NCBI RefSeq assembly: GCF_008974285.1
Contig: NZ_BKZV01000001.1
Coordinates: 1,582,214-1,646,213 of the forward strand
Length of the DNA: 64,000 nucleotides
DNA from: Thermogemmatispora aurantia
Lineage (GTDB): Bacteria; Chloroflexota; Ktedonobacteria; Ktedonobacterales; Ktedonobacteraceae
Reading direction: 5' to 3'
Of the stretch, positions 2,578 through 10,755 are shown in pieces. Within the stretch, counting starts at the first letter, position 1; every line of letters starts with the position of its first letter. Both the position numbers and the translations under genes were made by a program. The notes beneath the pieces were generated by a model. The model had not been told where the DNA came from, did no database searches, and saw only the letters and a program-made list of their open reading frames with translations.

Positions 2578-2856
2578 ATGCAAGATGAGCAGCTACAGCG
2601 CAAGCAAATGAAGGCTGCGAACTACGCTCAGCAGCCGGAGCGTTTCACCTTGCTAGAGATCAAGCTGCAGATGCGCTCGACACATGGTGTGCGCCTGATC
2701 AGCTATGCGGAAGGAGACTGGCACTGCACCTGCGACTTTTATCGAGAGCGCGGGACCTGTAGCCATATTATGGCGGCGGAGCAGCTACTTGGTCCCCTGG
2801 TTCCTCTGCCGACCGACACCATGCCGCGGGAAGAGCACCATGATCCTGAGCGATAG
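2578..2856 (+). CDS. small SWIM-type zinc-finger protein
   Basis: This is a 92-residue protein whose middle holds CTCDFYRERGTCSH, a CxC...CxH pattern typical of SWIM zinc fingers, preceded by a Trp and followed by a hydrophobic helix as in that family. No other domain is visible, so it is little more than a free SWIM finger. SWIM domains bind DNA or proteins and are found with recombination and ATPase factors; what this one contacts is unknown. Its 3' end overlaps the next gene by 17 nt in a different frame, which suggests translational coupling. The ATG at 2578 follows an AGGAG-like stretch. Confidence 0.7.
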   Translation: MQDEQLQRKQMKAANYAQQPERFTLLEIKLQMRSTHGVRLISYAEGDWHCTCDFYRERGTCSHIMAAEQLLGPLVPLPTDTMPREEHHDPER

Positions 2857-3364
2857 AGATCTCAAAGCCCTGCTGGCCGCCGGTCTGCTGGTAGTCGAGC
2901 CGTGGGAGGAACGGCAGCTTGGGCCAACCAGCATTGATCTGCGCCTCGGCGCGCGTCTCGTCAAGTATCGCGGAGAGCGTCTTGAGCTGGGCAAGGCCCC
3001 ACCTGCCAGTGAGGAGATTATGATCGATCCTCATCACGGCTATGAGCTGCGCCCGGGCGAGTTCATCCTGGGTTGCACGCTGGAGCGGGTCCGCATTCCC
3101 AACGGTTACCAGGGCTTTATCGAAACCAAAGGGGACGTTGCGCGGGCTGGACTGCAGGTGCACAATGGCGATGGCCATGTTGATCCGGGGAGCGACCATG
3201 TGCTGACGCTCGAAATCACTAACCTCAATAGTATCCCGGTCGTCCTCTATCCCGGCCTCTTCATCTGCCAGCTCTTCATTCATCAGTTGAGCAGTCTCTG
3301 CCTGCGCGAATACCGCGGAAAATACTTCGGGCAGCAAGGGCCAACCGTTTATCAGCCGGCCTAG
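2840..3364 (+). CDS. divergent dCTP deaminase/dUTPase-fold protein
   Basis: This 174-residue protein starts with ILSDRDLK and contains LGPTSIDLRLG, VHNGDGHVDPG and LTLEITN, the ordered motifs of the Dcd family. The Glu of LTLEITN matches the catalytic Glu of E. coli Dcd. The Arg-Ser-Ser stretch before ALAR in classic enzymes is here TKGDVAR, so the second nucleotide-binding Ser is absent; the protein may belong to a divergent branch or have changed activity. A housekeeping role (dCTP to dUTP) is possible. An anti-phage nucleotide-depletion role is also possible, since stand-alone dCTP deaminases are known defence genes and this one lies among STAND proteins; that is inference. The start was chosen at 2840 because the N-terminal motif begins there. 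An in-frame upstream extension exists but carries no family sequence. Confidence 0.75.
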   Translation: MILSDRDLKALLAAGLLVVEPWEERQLGPTSIDLRLGARLVKYRGERLELGKAPPASEEIMIDPHHGYELRPGEFILGCTLERVRIPNGYQGFIETKGDVARAGLQVHNGDGHVDPGSDHVLTLEITNLNSIPVVLYPGLFICQLFIHQLSSLCLREYRGKYFGQQGPTVYQPA

Positions 3365-3406: not shown

Positions 3407-6400
3407 TCAGCTCCGGTCTTCCTGCCCTGCCAGCCTCGGTTGAAGCACTGGATTCTCCACAGCGCCCAGGGAGCGTAGTATAGAGCGCTGCGAGAGCGAG
3501 AGGCCAGTTGCTGCATAGATATTCATGCCCTCATAAGGTCGGTCGCTGCGCAGCACGCGGAGGCACTGAGCACGCTCCACATCCCAGACCTCAATCGTCC
3601 CTGTGTGGCTGCCGCTCACCAAGAGCACGGGCTGCACACCGCGACTGAAAGCGATCTCGCGGATGCGATAATCAAAGTGACTGACGATTTTCAGCAGCTC
3701 GCCGGTCTCCAGATCCCACAGGCAGACGAGTTGATCATCTCCAGCGCTGGCCAGCAGGCGGCTATCGGGACTGATGGAGAGCGTCCAGATCCGCTCTCGA
3801 TGCCCCTTCAGAATCGCCCGCGGAAGACCTTGCTCCAGATGGGTCAGATCCCAGAGACGCACCTGCTGATCAGCTCCTGCCGTGGCCAACCAGCGACCGT
3901 CAGGACTGATGGCCAGCGTATAGATCGCCCCGTTATGGCCAGAGAGCTTTCGCCAGCAGCTGTAATCGCGAGTATCCCAGAGGCAGATGGTTTGATCTTC
4001 AGCGCCACTCACCAGGAGCCGGCCATCGGGACTATAGGCGACAGCGTAGACACGCCCCCGATGTTCGCGAAGAATATGCAAGCACTGACCGGTTGCCACC
4101 TCCCAAATACGCAATGTACGATCGGCTCCGCCGCTGGCCAAGAGCGAACCATCGGGAGAAAAAGCCACCATGTAGACACGAGCCGCATGGCCCTTGAGAA
4201 TGCGGAAGTTCTGGCCCGTCTCCACCTGCCAGAGGCGCACCGTGCCATCCTCGCTGCTACTGGCAAGGAGGCGACCCTGTCCATCGAAGGTCACCGTCCA
4301 GACACTGGCCGTGTGCCCCTCCATCGTGCGCAAGCAGCGTAGCTCACCCAGGTCCCAGAGCCGCACCTGGCCATCATCGCCGCTACTGGCAAAGAGCTGA
4401 CCATCGGGGCTGGTCGCCACCGTGCGCACCTGGCTGCTATAGCCCTGCAACATACGGACACAGCGCCCACGCTCAAGATCCCAGAAACGCACCGTCTGAT
4501 CGTCGCTTCCACTCACCAATAAGCGATCATCAGCACTGACGGCCAGCGAATAGACACGCCGGCTATGCCCCTCCAGCGTCTTGATACAAGAGAGGTCGCG
4601 TATATTCCAGAGGCGCAAGAGGCGATCACCGCCAGCACTGGCGAGGAAGCGGCTATCGCTGCTGAAAGAGAGCGCATAGACCTGCTCACGATGGGCATCC
4701 CAGGAAGCCAGCAGTGCCAGGGAAGTCAAGTCCCAGAGCATGATGCGCTCCTCGCAGCCGCAGGCGAGCAAGCGACCATCGTAACTGAGCGCCAGCGACC
4801 AGATGCTGTCGTTGGCACCGGGGAGACGGGCCCGGCAGGCGCCGCTCTCTACATCCCAGAGGCGCAGAATTGCATCCTCTCCGCCGCTGATCAGCGTCTT
4901 GCCGTCGGGAGTGAGGGCCACAGCATAGACTCTGCCGCTCTGACCCTGGTCAGTCAGCTCGCGCTGGCACTCAGCGAGACCGGAAGCCATATCAAGGCGC
5001 CAGAGACGCACGGTCTGATCGCCGCTACCACTGGCGAGCAGGTGACCATCGGCGCTCACGGCCAGCGAATAGATGCGTTCTTGATGGCCTCGCAGGGTCT
5101 GCAGGCACTGGCCAGTCTCCACATCCCAGAGACGAATTGTTCCATCCTCACTACCGCTGATCACCATACGTCCATCAGGGCTGAAGAGGACCGAGCGCAC
5201 CCAATCGGCATGGCCCTGGCAGGTTACCAGCGGCGCATAGTCGCGGACGCGGAAGATACGCACCTCACAGGTAGTCGTACCGAGCGCTATGAGCGAGCCA
5301 TCGTGGTTAAGAGCCACCGAGAGAATGCTTCCGAAGATCTCGGTGAAGGCCGAGCCAGTCAGATCGGCCCAGGCGAAATTGACGTTCGGTAAGGCTTTGC
5401 CTCGCAAATTAGCCTGCCAGACCGCCAGACCCGAGAAATCCCAGCCACGGAGATCGCACTGCAAGTGGAGGAGCAGATTGAGAATATTACCAGCCGCATA
5501 GCCCGGCCTGCCGCGTTCCAGCCGGGCCAGCAATGAGCGCAGCAGTTGCTCGCAACCGTTTCCTCCCCTGGCAGTGCGCAAGATGTGAGCCAGTGGCTCA
5601 AGAATCGAGCGGACCTGGTCCTCGCGAATATAGTCCCGGGCCTGGGCCTTGAGAAGGGCATGACTTTGCAACAGAGAGAGAGGCTGCTCTTCGAGAATCT
5701 CAGCAGCCACTTGCTGCACCAGACGATCCGTCACATATTCGCAGATCACCGGCTGCAGCGTATAGCCCGCGGCCCCACGCACCTCGACGAGTGAGCGATG
5801 GCGCAGCGACTTTAGCACTTCAAGCAGCGCTCCTTTGGGAGTATGCGCCAGGCGATCTTCCAGCAACTCAGAGAGCGTCACTACCTCGCGCCCAATCGCT
5901 AACCAGTACAAGACATCCCGTTCATCAGGGGTTAAGCGCTCGAACTGCTTATCAAGCAAATCTTTAATACCCTGAAGAACCAGCACCTCCTGATCGAGGA
6001 AGCGAGCGATCTGACGATCAAAGACCTCGCGAATGGTAGGAGAGACCAGTTTCAGAGCCAGGGGATTGCCAGCATAGCGGCGAATGAACTCGGCCCAGTG
6101 CTCATCATCGCCCTCCAACCCCTCACCTGCCAGCAACAAACGCCCAGCCTCGGGCGAGACGCCTGACAGGGTCATGGTGCGCACCGGGGCATATTTTCCC
6201 TCCTGGAGAGGAATGCCATCGGGCTTCTCGCGGCTGGTTAGCAGGACGCAGCTTTGCAGGGCATGGCTCCCCAATAGATAGAGCAGCTCCTCATAGCCCT
6301 TGTAATCCCCCTGGTAGTGGCCCGCCAGAGCACCACTCTGCAGCAGCGAGTCGAAGTCATCAAGGACCAACAGAAACCGCTCGCGCTCCAGCCGCTGAAT

Positions 6401-7057
6401 CAGCAGCTTCAGGCGATCCTCCTCACTCTCGGGAAGGGGGGTCGGCTGGTGCTCCTCCTCCCCGTTGAGGAAGCGCAGGCAGCGATCGAGAAGACGCCCA
6501 CGGGACAAAGGGGTATGGAGCGAAAGCCAGAGCAAGCCTTGAAAATCGGAGGAGCTGCGCAGACGCTGAACCAGAGCCGCCGCCAGGGCGGTCTTACCCA
6601 CTCCGCCTATGCCCACAATGGCGATCAGGCGGCAACGATCCTGCGTCACCCAACGCCAGAGCAGCTCTTGCTCCTCATCACGGCCATAGAGACGAGAGAC
6701 GTGGGGCGCTTCCTCTAGATCAGAGCGTGGACGGGCAGCCAGGGAATCCAGGGCCACCGCAGTAGCAGGCAGCACCAGAGGGGAGGACATAGTACGCCGG
6801 CGCCCGCGCGGCAGCTGCTCCAATTGCCCACCCACTAATACCTCAACCAGTTCGCCGCTGCGTAGCTGCAGCGCACGCTCGTACTCTTGCACAAGCTGGA
6901 GCGATGGCAGAGTCAAATTGTTTTCAACGGCAGAAAGATAGCTCTTTGAATAGCCCACCGCGCGCGCTACCTCGCTCAGGCTCTTACCCATCTGCTGGCG
7001 CAGGTGACGCATACGGGTCCCAATAGCGGTTGCAGGAGCGTGTCTGTTTTCAGCCAT
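3407..7057 (-). CDS. HTH-NB-ARC-WD40 STAND protein, 14 WD40 blades
   Basis: The 1216-residue protein has three parts. Residues 12-65 form an XRE-type helix-turn-helix (SLSEVARAVGYSKSYLSAVE). Residues 125-500 form an NB-ARC-like NTPase with Walker A GIGGVGKTAL near 149 and Walker B LLVLDDFDSL. From about residue 585 there are 14 WD40 blades ending in variants of LWD, enough for two seven-bladed propellers. A tail with RPYEGMNI and LRSLGA follows. The arrangement recalls Apaf-1 with the effector replaced by a DNA-binding domain, so it may act as a signal-responsive transcription regulator; this is inference. The ATG at 7057 was chosen for its GGAG site 7 nt upstream. It is transcribed away from a sigma-like gene across a shared operator-rich gap. 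Confidence 0.85.
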   Translation of the reverse strand: MAENRHAPATAIGTRMRHLRQQMGKSLSEVARAVGYSKSYLSAVENNLTLPSLQLVQEYERALQLRSGELVEVLVGGQLEQLPRGRRRTMSSPLVLPATAVALDSLAARPRSDLEEAPHVSRLYGRDEEQELLWRWVTQDRCRLIAIVGIGGVGKTALAAALVQRLRSSSDFQGLLWLSLHTPLSRGRLLDRCLRFLNGEEEHQPTPLPESEEDRLKLLIQRLERERFLLVLDDFDSLLQSGALAGHYQGDYKGYEELLYLLGSHALQSCVLLTSREKPDGIPLQEGKYAPVRTMTLSGVSPEAGRLLLAGEGLEGDDEHWAEFIRRYAGNPLALKLVSPTIREVFDRQIARFLDQEVLVLQGIKDLLDKQFERLTPDERDVLYWLAIGREVVTLSELLEDRLAHTPKGALLEVLKSLRHRSLVEVRGAAGYTLQPVICEYVTDRLVQQVAAEILEEQPLSLLQSHALLKAQARDYIREDQVRSILEPLAHILRTARGGNGCEQLLRSLLARLERGRPGYAAGNILNLLLHLQCDLRGWDFSGLAVWQANLRGKALPNVNFAWADLTGSAFTEIFGSILSVALNHDGSLIALGTTTCEVRIFRVRDYAPLVTCQGHADWVRSVLFSPDGRMVISGSEDGTIRLWDVETGQCLQTLRGHQERIYSLAVSADGHLLASGSGDQTVRLWRLDMASGLAECQRELTDQGQSGRVYAVALTPDGKTLISGGEDAILRLWDVESGACRARLPGANDSIWSLALSYDGRLLACGCEERIMLWDLTSLALLASWDAHREQVYALSFSSDSRFLASAGGDRLLRLWNIRDLSCIKTLEGHSRRVYSLAVSADDRLLVSGSDDQTVRFWDLERGRCVRMLQGYSSQVRTVATSPDGQLFASSGDDGQVRLWDLGELRCLRTMEGHTASVWTVTFDGQGRLLASSSEDGTVRLWQVETGQNFRILKGHAARVYMVAFSPDGSLLASGGADRTLRIWEVATGQCLHILREHRGRVYAVAYSPDGRLLVSGAEDQTICLWDTRDYSCWRKLSGHNGAIYTLAISPDGRWLATAGADQQVRLWDLTHLEQGLPRAILKGHRERIWTLSISPDSRLLASAGDDQLVCLWDLETGELLKIVSHFDYRIREIAFSRGVQPVLLVSGSHTGTIEVWDVERAQCLRVLRSDRPYEGMNIYAATGLSLSQRSILRSLGAVENPVLQPRLAGQEDRS

Positions 7058-7097
7058 TACAGTCTCCTCGCTGCCCACCACGGCGGGTTACGTTGAT

Positions 7098-7139
7098 TGT
7101 TCTACTGGGTAGTATAGAACAGAAGTGCACGCCTGTAAA
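7098..7139 (-). promoter_or_regulatory. promoter and palindrome upstream of the HTH-NB-ARC-WD40 gene
   Basis: On the minus strand, TTTACA (7139-7134), a 17-nt spacer and TATACT (7116-7111) form a good sigma-70-type promoter, with transcription expected to start near 7104, 47 nt before the ATG. The perfect 7-bp arms TGTTCTA (7098-7104) and TAGAACA (7115-7121), 10 nt apart, overlap the -10 and the start point, as an operator for repression would. Confidence 0.65.
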
Positions 7140-7177
7140 GAGGAGTGCCGTTCTCTTTCTGCTCAATTGCACATTTA

Positions 7178-7191
7178 TGAACAATCGTTCA
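7178..7191. promoter_or_regulatory. TGAACAATCGTTCA palindrome
   Basis: Perfect 5-bp arms TGAAC and GTTCA flank AATC. It lies midway between the two divergent promoters and shares the GAAC/GTTC half-site with the palindromes on each side. It also fits the GAAC-N4-GTTC pattern of Bacillus-type LexA boxes, so SOS control is an alternative to control by the local HTH protein. Confidence 0.5.
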
Positions 7192-7213
7192 TCGTTTCAT
7201 CTTCTCAACCCTC

Positions 7214-7270
7214 TTGAAAAACACGAGTGAACACTGTATACTGTTCTATAGAGAACAACTGAATGTTCAC
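7214..7270 (+). promoter_or_regulatory. promoter and nested palindromes upstream of the sigma-like gene
   Basis: TTGAAA (7214-7219), a 17-nt spacer and TATACT (7237-7242) make a strong promoter reading right. Two nested dyads overlap it: TGTTCT (7242-7247) with AGAACA (7252-7257), and outer arms GTGAACA (7227-7233) with TGTTCAC (7264-7270). The half-sites match those at the facing promoter. About 280 nt of leader separate the expected start near 7249 from the GTG at 7531; no convincing gene lies in that leader. Confidence 0.65.
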
Positions 7271-7530
7271 TATCCTCTCAGGTTCTGCTACAGAACTGGC
7301 GAGCGATAAGCTCAACTCCTCCAGCTACCTTGCCACAGGCCGGCCTGAGCAGCGCTGGTTGTTCTCCTTCCGAACTCATTGCTCGCTGGTCATCGCGATG
7401 GCTGATAAAGCGAATAGACCGACACGACTTGACCCAGGTGAGGCAACGTCAGGCTTGCCGGCTCCAGAACTGGACAGAGTACGGCATCTTATAGGTTTGC
7501 TTCTTTGTTTCTTCGTGAAGGAGGAGTCTT

Positions 7531-8211
7531 GTGAACTCACTAACTTCGCTCGGAGTTTCCGTTGACGACAGCGACTCTGAAGATGAAGCCTTGCTACACG
7601 CCTGCGACGCTCGGGTTGTGACTCAGGTACGTCGCTACTTCTCACGCATCCGCTCTGGCAAGTGGGAAGATCTGGAAGCACTCTGTCAAGACGAATGCCA
7701 GGAGGTGCGCTTCGCCCTCTGGAAAGTGAGTCGGAAAGGGCCACTGCACAAACCTGCCTTGCTGATCCGCGTCATTGTCCAGAATCGCGCACGCGATACC
7801 TGTCGACGACTTCGCCGTCGTCCTCTGCTTCTTCCCCTAGAGACAGAGCAGCCCGAGGTTCTTGCTCTCAGCGAGCAGTGTGCCGCCACCAACGAAGGAG
7901 CGCGTGATCCAGCCTATGAGTGTGAGCTGCAGGATTTTCCAGAAGAGCGCCTTGCGCTCTACATCCAGGCCATTCGCAGCTTGTCTGCCCGTGAACAGGC
8001 AGCTGTGCTCTGGCGCATTCGTGAGTGCGGCCTCGAACTACGGCCCGTGATCGCGGCGCTGCGCAAGGCGGGCCTGGACCCCGAGCAGGTGCCGCCGCCG
8101 CAGAGTCAGGCTGAGCTGAAGCGCTATCGCTCTGCCTTGAGTACTGCCCGGCGACACCTGCGCAAGCCGCTCGGCGTCTCAGCCGCCGGCCAGTCTGCGC
8201 GCCTACACTAG
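7531..8211 (+). CDS. sigma-70-like RNA polymerase sigma factor (atypical)
   Basis: The 226-residue protein has a first half that resembles sigma-70 region 2: a helix around YFSRIRSGKWEDLEALCQDE, then a stretch ending IRVIVQNRARDTCRRLRRRP, with the expected basic DNA-contact end. The second half starts at RSLSAREQAAVLWRI and looks like region 4. Neither is a textbook ECF match and the linker is long, so this is a sigma-like call rather than a firm family. The GTG start follows a very strong AAGGAGGAG site. It is divergent from the HTH-NB-ARC-WD40 gene, and the shared TGTTC/GAACA palindromes suggest that the two are regulated together. No anti-sigma gene is adjacent; the STAND protein could play that part, which is speculation. 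Confidence 0.55.
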   Translation: MNSLTSLGVSVDDSDSEDEALLHACDARVVTQVRRYFSRIRSGKWEDLEALCQDECQEVRFALWKVSRKGPLHKPALLIRVIVQNRARDTCRRLRRRPLLLPLETEQPEVLALSEQCAATNEGARDPAYECELQDFPEERLALYIQAIRSLSAREQAAVLWRIRECGLELRPVIAALRKAGLDPEQVPPPQSQAELKRYRSALSTARRHLRKPLGVSAAGQSARLH

Positions 8212-9594: not shown

Positions 9595-10755
9595 ATGGAC
9601 ATGATCGACGGCTTAGCGGCGCTCCTCCAGCGGGCCACTGTTCGCATCGACGCCGACCATAATCCCAGGGGTACAGGCTTCTTTGTGGGGCCGGGCCTGA
9701 TTCTGACCTGCGCCCACGTCATCCCATCTGTTCACAAGGCAACTTCCAGCCTCCAGATCTACTGGCAGGAGAGATATTACGAGGCGGCCATCACTACAGT
9801 GTCTACTGATGACTCGTCCCCAGATCGGGATCTGGATCTGGCGCTGTTAACGGTCCCTCTTGAGGATCATCCCTGTGTCTTACTTTGCGGTGAGGCTCAG
9901 CCCTACAGCCGTCTGTACACCTATGGTTACCCAGGCTCAGTGCCTGGAGGCACCTCTTTCATTTTCGACGCCGCCGGGCCAGCCGGCGAGCGGAACCAGT
10001 GGGTCACCTTCCAACGCGGCCCGGTCGACCCCGGCATGAGCGGCGCCCCGCTGCTCGACCGGGAAAGCGGCTGCGTCTGCGGCATGATCCAGTTCTCGCT
10101 GGGCCTCCATAGCGAGCGCGGGGGCCAGGGTCTGCAGGCGCGCGTCATCCTTGCTCAGCTTCCTGATCTTGTCAATCATCAACTGGCCGCACACCGGCAA
10201 AACCGCCGCTGGCTGGAGCTTCTCTCAGTCGAGCAACGTCAGCGCCTCGGGCAGTGCTGTCCCCAGTATCAGCCGCTGCTCCAGCAGAACACCAAAGCCC
10301 TCAAAGTCTTTATATCCTACTCCGGCAGCCAGCGGGATCGCAAACTGAGAGAGGAACTTGAGAAGCAGTTGGCTTCCTTTAGACGGAATCAACTGATCGA
10401 AAGCTACCACAGCGAGCAGCTAAGCGCGGGGCGTGAACGGAGCGAGAGCCAGCGCCTGCTAGAGCAGGCGGACATCATTCTATTACTTATCAGCCCTGAC
10501 TACATGAGCTCCGACCAATGCTACAACGAAGAAATGCAGCGGGCCATGCAGCGCCACGAGGCCGGCACGGCGCGCATCATCCCGATCAAGTTGCGGCCAA
10601 CTGTGGAGCTGGCCAGCTCTCCCTTCGGCAAGCTGCAGGCCCTGCCGCGCTCCGGGCAACCTATCACGGAAAGCAGGGACCGTGACGCAGCCATGAAGGA
10701 GATCGCCGATGAGCTGTATCGGGTCATCCAGGAGTTGAAAAGCAAGCAGACCTGA
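9595..10755 (+). CDS. trypsin-like serine protease fused to a TIR domain
   Basis: Residues 10-200 form a trypsin-like protease with all three catalytic stretches: His in TCAHV, Asp in DLDLALL and Ser in DPGMSGAPLL. Residues 235-386 form a TIR domain beginning KVFISYSGSQRDRKL, with Glu residues in CYNEEMQRAM where the NAD-cleaving Glu of TIR enzymes falls. There is no signal peptide, so it acts inside the cell. Both halves are known effector modules of bacterial immune systems. One protein carrying both could cleave a partner and consume NAD, or use TIR only for assembly; this is inference. The ATG at 9595 follows AGAGG; a second ATG at 9601 is possible. It stands alone, convergent with hflX. 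Confidence 0.8.
   Translation: MDMIDGLAALLQRATVRIDADHNPRGTGFFVGPGLILTCAHVIPSVHKATSSLQIYWQERYYEAAITTVSTDDSSPDRDLDLALLTVPLEDHPCVLLCGEAQPYSRLYTYGYPGSVPGGTSFIFDAAGPAGERNQWVTFQRGPVDPGMSGAPLLDRESGCVCGMIQFSLGLHSERGGQGLQARVILAQLPDLVNHQLAAHRQNRRWLELLSVEQRQRLGQCCPQYQPLLQQNTKALKVFISYSGSQRDRKLREELEKQLASFRRNQLIESYHSEQLSAGRERSESQRLLEQADIILLLISPDYMSSDQCYNEEMQRAMQRHEAGTARIIPIKLRPTVELASSPFGKLQALPRSGQPITESRDRDAAMKEIADELYRVIQELKSKQT

Follow-up and report, generated by a model that had tools for sequence, protein, structure and literature searches.

Binding of SinR to its site GTTCTYT has been described for inverted, tandem, and single arrangements of this word, the best site being the inverted pair TTTGTTCTCTAAAGAGAACTTA with six nucleotides between GTTCT and AGAAC (PMC3163267, PMC5733473). 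The locus described here, a gap between two divergent genes of Thermogemmatispora aurantia, resembles SinR of Bacillus subtilis and its operators at eps, tapA, and kinB in the helix-turn-helix (HTH) domain and its recognition helix, in the presence of the word GTTCTYT over promoters, and in the mixed arrangement of that word as inverted and single copies. In contrast to SinR, the HTH belongs to a protein that also contains NB-ARC and WD40 domains, the half-sites are separated by N4 and N12 instead of N6, and biofilm genes are not involved. A further described case is that of NB-ARC, WD40, or TRADD-N/EACC2 modules to which an ECF sigma factor is linked or fused (PMC11119718, PMC8195603). With those systems the locus has in common that an ECF sigma factor is tied to a sensor NTPase or propeller in multicellular bacteria; they are, however, fusions or have other gene neighbourhoods, while here a divergent pair is found.

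MalT-type STAND regulators are activators once signalled. As in MalT and its relatives, which are XRE- or LuxR-type STAND regulators, a DNA-binding domain is combined with a STAND NTPase and a repeat sensor; in the present case, the candidate operator lies on the -10 box and the start of the regulator's own gene and of a sigma factor gene, and the sensor is a WD40 domain. The arrangement is also reminiscent of 434 Cro/CI, where one HTH protein of the Cro/CI fold serves two divergent promoters, except that the partner gene is that of a sigma factor and the proposed repressor is a STAND protein of 1213 residues. Taken one by one, divergent operators with self-regulation, HTHs like that of SinR, STAND regulators, and ECF sigma factors are already known. 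No conserved divergent XRE-NB-ARC-WD40/ECF pair served by one operator turned up in the literature searched; as its coverage is incomplete, this absence is weak evidence.

NB-ARC/WD40 proteins are abundant in multicellular bacteria; to our knowledge, neither output nor target is known for most of them. The DNA analyzed here, a stretch of 64,000 nucleotides (the window), names likely targets of one such sensor, namely its own gene and an ECF-type sigma factor gene, together with a likely half-site, by which its function becomes testable with a short DNA probe. As judged from the sequence, the gap between the two genes is probably a shared operator-promoter region through which the STAND protein would repress its own gene and the ECF-type sigma factor gene.

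The divergent gene pair and its promoters

The gap extends from 7049 to 7530, between an ATG at 7048 on the minus strand and a GTG at 7531 on the plus strand. The genes and promoter elements are as follows.

3407-7048, minus strand: STAND regulator, XRE-NB-ARC-WD40, 1213 amino acids, with a SinR-like HTH at residues 12-66 (Pfam; SinR as best solved relative)
7531-8211, plus strand: predicted ECF-type sigma factor, 226 amino acids; GTG start preceded by AAGGAGGAG, a ribosome site kept in the genus
7134-7139, minus strand: -35 box TTTACA of the STAND-gene promoter, invariant in five species
7111-7116, minus strand: -10 box TATACT of the STAND-gene promoter, invariant in five species
7214-7219, plus strand: -35 box TTGAAA of the sigma-gene promoter, invariant in five species
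7237-7242, plus strand: -10 box TATACT of the sigma-gene promoter, invariant in five species

The STAND protein matches the Pfam families WD40, NB-ARC (3.3e-12), NACHT, HTH_31, and HTH_3 and has the layout of a STAND NTPase, with an NB-ARC-type ATPase, C-terminal repeats, and an N-terminal DNA-binding domain. In phmmer searches with the HTH, matches to 3qq6 (9.5e-9) and to 1b0n/3zkc (7e-8) were obtained, making SinR the best solved relative, and the recognition helix KSYLSAVENN is near-identical to KSYLSSIERN of SinR. According to Pfam, a SinI-type C-terminal dimerisation domain is absent, the C-terminal part being made up of NB-ARC and WD40.

The protein encoded to the right has no Pfam match by itself and a weak match to NF006550 (0.018). 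Among 17 members of its family, 14 match Sigma70_r2 (PF04542; best 2e-8), with TIGR02937 at best 3.2e-11, while for sigma-70 region 4 a single member gives a weak Sigma70_r4_2 match at 0.068. A PDB profile search with the family was led by protein A repeats, with ECF sigma factors at E ~0.01, and the fold search was therefore used. The first matches of the alignment-based predicted fold (mean pLDDT 78) are the ECF sigma factors SigE, SigH, and sigmaE; full-length ECF sigma factors are aligned with probabilities of 0.92-0.99 and E of 0.01-0.06, at low TM-scores. The gene, termed sigma-like in a first-pass annotation made from the letters alone, would accordingly belong to a divergent ECF-type sigma factor family with an atypical region 4, and sigma activity is predicted from region 2 and the fold.

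Both promoters named in that annotation were recovered by a sequence scan. The STAND-gene promoter reads TTTACA-N17-TATACT on the minus strand (7139-7111) and the sigma-gene promoter TTGAAA-N17-TATACT on the plus strand (7214-7242); their -10 boxes are identical in sequence, and each promoter matches the consensus at 10 of 12 positions. Their description as facing was wrong, since they run divergently, back to back. Within 3 kb, these two are the only sigma-A-type promoter-like sites, with 0.6 +/- 0.6 in shuffled sequence, and transcription would start, as counted from the -10 boxes, near 7249 on the plus strand for the sigma gene and near 7104 on the minus strand for the STAND gene. No Rfam match to an RNA element was obtained in 6900-7700 up to E = 1. 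An open reading frame at 7263-7565 was considered as a coding leader and rejected; in three congeners it runs for 26-63 codons before a stop, and a ribosome site is not apparent. The start and the codons next to it look conserved (MFTILSGSA.ELAS), and the congener frames end at differing places.

Half-sites over the promoters

The gap contains 14 occurrences of GTTC/GAAC, nine of which surround the two promoters as half-sites. The extended word GTTCT/AGAAC is the top-enriched 5-mer, with nine copies in the gap against 1.4 expected, a count reached in 0 of 300 shuffles. Genome-wide (5.6 Mb), GTTCT-N{2,14}-AGAAC occurs at 33 places, and three of them, 7099-7120, 7243-7256, and 7282-7296, lie inside the gap (Poisson P ~4e-9). 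The arrangement is the following.

7098-7121: candidate operator dyad TGTTCTACTGGGTAGTATAGAACA over the -10 box and start of the STAND gene; GTTCT at 7099-7103 and AGAAC at 7116-7120, N12
7150-7156, plus strand: lone half-site GTTCTCT, fitting the SinR consensus throughout; its first six bases, GTTCTC, are the same in five species
7178-7191: middle dyad TGAACAATCGTTCA of reversed, LexA-like polarity; right half broken in congener L023
7228-7232, minus strand: half-site TGAAC between the -35 and -10 boxes of the sigma-gene promoter, invariant in five species
7242-7257: candidate core operator TGTTCTATAGAGAACA where transcription of the sigma gene would start; both arms invariant, the four central positions variable
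7264-7269, plus strand: outer half-site TGTTCA downstream of the sigma-gene start, invariant in five species

That half-sites of the TGTTC/GAACA type overlap both promoters, as claimed from the first reading, is borne out beyond chance by the shuffles and the genome-wide dyad search. The dyads at the two promoters are related, as had also been stated; the middle dyad is likewise present, but its half-sites are oppositely oriented. AGAAC at 7116-7120 touches the -10 box of the STAND gene, and the half-sites around the start of the sigma gene are nested (TGAAC 7228-7232, GTTCT 7243-7247, AGAAC 7252-7256, GTTCA 7265-7269). GTTCTCT at 7150 and at 7256-7250 (minus strand) fits the SinR word GTTCTYT, and GTTCTAT at 7243 and at 7120-7114 (minus strand) departs from it at position 6. 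No copy of the SinR spacing GTTCT-N6-AGAAC is present in the gap. With spacings that are unlike between the promoters (N4, N12) and unlike that of SinR, a rigid dimer does not account for the sites; the unequal spacing might be accommodated by a flexible or higher-order mode of binding such as has been put forward for SinR. The third dyad, 7282-7296, is unconserved in congeners and was taken as a chance occurrence.

Conservation in the genus and in other genera

Within the genus, the window genome was compared with the four other Thermogemmatispora genomes that keep both genes and the gap. Between 7095 and 7270, 43 of the 45 half-site columns are invariant in the five species, in comparison to 62 of 108 other columns, from which the promoter hexamers were excluded (Fisher P 8e-7), and both promoter dyads are conserved in the four congeners. 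The conservation in relatives on which the first-pass annotation had made its proposal depend is thus found. Variation is free at the four central positions of the core dyad (ATAG, CTAT, or TTAT) and in the 8 bp preceding the outer GTTCA. GTTCT-N4-AGAAC occurs one to three times per genome, and all five module-bearing genomes have one copy at the sigma promoter; the core dyad is not shared with further conserved sites of the genus. In a sixth genome (G023, a fragmented assembly), both genes appear broken; what is left is residues 915-993 from the WD40 part and, from the C-terminal half of the sigma factor, residues 115-214, which suggests that STAND and sigma sequence were jointly lost through one deletion. 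These remnants sit at L026 1501-2830.

Beyond the genus, the HTH and the sigma protein each served as a query, and matches in neighbouring divergent genes were taken as a pair. The divergent STAND-sigma pair was found in six genera, represented by Thermogemmatispora, G010 (two loci), G011, G013, G014-G017, and G025, so that sensor and sigma factor, first proposed to form a module from this single locus, recur as such. Full STAND genes from six loci are of equal length and have a like WD40 end and C-terminal tail. Three further genera, at four loci (L029, L031, L035, L046), have a sigma relative placed divergently to a STAND gene whose XRE domain is of another kind.

When the word was taken over unchanged from the window, GTTCT again ranked first among the 5-mers in the gap of G011, a different genus (7 copies against 1.0 expected). 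At most other loci with a SinR-like HTH, the word takes both the form TTGTTT and the form TTGTTC, and the widened form TTGTTYT is enriched in each of the eight tested gaps of this kind (P <= 0.017 for every one), with zero to one copy in 4 of 4 gaps that have the same sigma family but a different XRE domain. Since C was widened to Y post hoc, once the relatives had been seen, the G011 result and the absence at the loci with exchanged HTH weigh most. One of the latter, L046, has a repeat of its own, CAGTATA/TATACTG (4 copies against 0.07 expected), with the sigma relative at L046 944-2005. Loss of TTGTTYT where the XRE domain differs but the sigma factor stays indicates that the word tracks the HTH, not the sigma factor. 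In five genera, the -10 box of the sigma gene is followed by GTTYT, at once or one base on. G010 C199, despite an identical recognition helix (YSKSYLSAVENN), is devoid of GTTCT and contains TTGTTT-type words only. Upstream of STAND genes lacking a sigma partner, TTGTTYT is enriched in L083 and not in L082, L084, L088, and L089; the L083 case concerns an XRE gene without sigma neighbour in another family, upstream of 1713 (3 copies against 0.3 expected). The apparent exchange of HTH and operator with the sigma partner staying amounts to a natural experiment on the co-evolution of operator and DNA-binding domain.

A candidate shared operator and competing explanations

The suggestion that one regulator, perhaps the HTH-NB-ARC-WD40 protein itself, controls both genes gains support from the SinR-like HTH, from the SinR word at the sites, and from the tracking of word and HTH. 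We infer that the STAND HTH binds the half-sites directly. Its N-terminal XRE domain would read a half-site like that of SinR, (T)TGTTYT, with GTTCT as its form in Thermogemmatispora, and half-sites on the -10 box and start of both promoters would, when the signal is absent, bring about a steric block and autoregulation. At both promoters, the -10 box and the start are covered, which fits repression, considered the probable mode of action rather than activation. Counting against this reading are the unequal spacings of the dyads, the lack of GTTCT in G010 C199, the post hoc widening to TTGTTYT, and the lack of that word upstream of most related STAND genes that have no sigma partner. By analogy with the protein families concerned, the WD40 propeller would sense a ligand or protein and set off a nucleotide switch and oligomerisation of the NB-ARC domain; DNA binding would be altered, expression of the sigma factor released, and RNA polymerase redirected by it. 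As a wider reading, for which the chances appear about even, the pair would represent a widespread Ktedonobacterial module in which an ECF-type sigma factor is under transcriptional control, with no anti-sigma factor, by a divergent, self-regulating, inflammasome-like XRE-NB-ARC-WD40 sensor, the DNA-binding domain being exchangeable between lineages and the operator changing along with it.

The main rival is that the STAND protein represses its own gene only and, once signalled, activates the sigma promoter in the manner of MalT. Signalled STAND regulators such as MalT are activators, and the half-sites extend past the core dyad, leaving room for higher oligomers; the sites lie, however, on the -10 box, spacer, and start of the two promoters and not upstream of -35, and both promoters are already close to consensus, so that activation is regarded as rather improbable. 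A regulator of a different kind, LexA of the SOS response, could bind the palindromes and control both genes. Gram-positive LexA boxes have the form GAAC-N4-GTTC, and so does the middle dyad, kept in four of five species. The promoter dyads are of the opposite polarity (GTTC...GAAC), though, and the lexA promoter of the genus is without GAAC-N4-GTTC and has a conserved CGAAAATACGTTCG instead; moreover, the middle dyad is broken in L023, and the gaps of the other genera show no GAAC-N4-GTTC. On polarity and genus box, LexA was rejected as the common regulator, which had been named as a competing explanation of all sites; it would account for the middle site at most, and its control of both genes is very unlikely.

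GAAC is also a typical -35 core of ECF sigma factors, the genes of which are frequently autoregulated, and the words might be -35 elements read by the ECF-type sigma factor itself in positive autoregulation. They occur in both orientations and as dyads, though, and the word is absent from four loci with the same sigma family and another XRE domain; with the unusual region 4, in addition, the -35 element of this sigma factor cannot be presumed. Because the word tracks the HTH, self-recognition via GAAC was rejected as highly improbable. The genome also encodes other XRE proteins (two weak matches), one of which might bind the half-sites from an unlinked gene; against this, a different HTH in the linked STAND gene goes along with a different word, and other conserved places in the genus do not share the core dyad, leaving an unlinked XRE regulator a barely credible candidate. 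Repression of both genes by the STAND protein remains the preferred reading.

Some minor observations concern the surroundings and the rest of the genomes. Beside the module are the gene of a CHAT-like/TPR protein (32-2425) and a dCTP-deaminase-like gene (2705-3364, so named from its sequence alone), the latter being preserved whole in G023 next to the apparently broken module. At a distance of two genes from the module, 9595-10755 encodes a trypsin-like peptidase joined to a TIR domain, which comes near ThsB-type TIR proteins of a defence library. Upstream of lexA, CTGTTCCGAAAATACGTT is conserved in six genomes (L090-L095) and is the probable LexA box of the genus. Elsewhere in the genome, at G000:C4:517524-517619, GTTCTATCCTCCCTGTCAGAAC is found twice, 74 bp apart.
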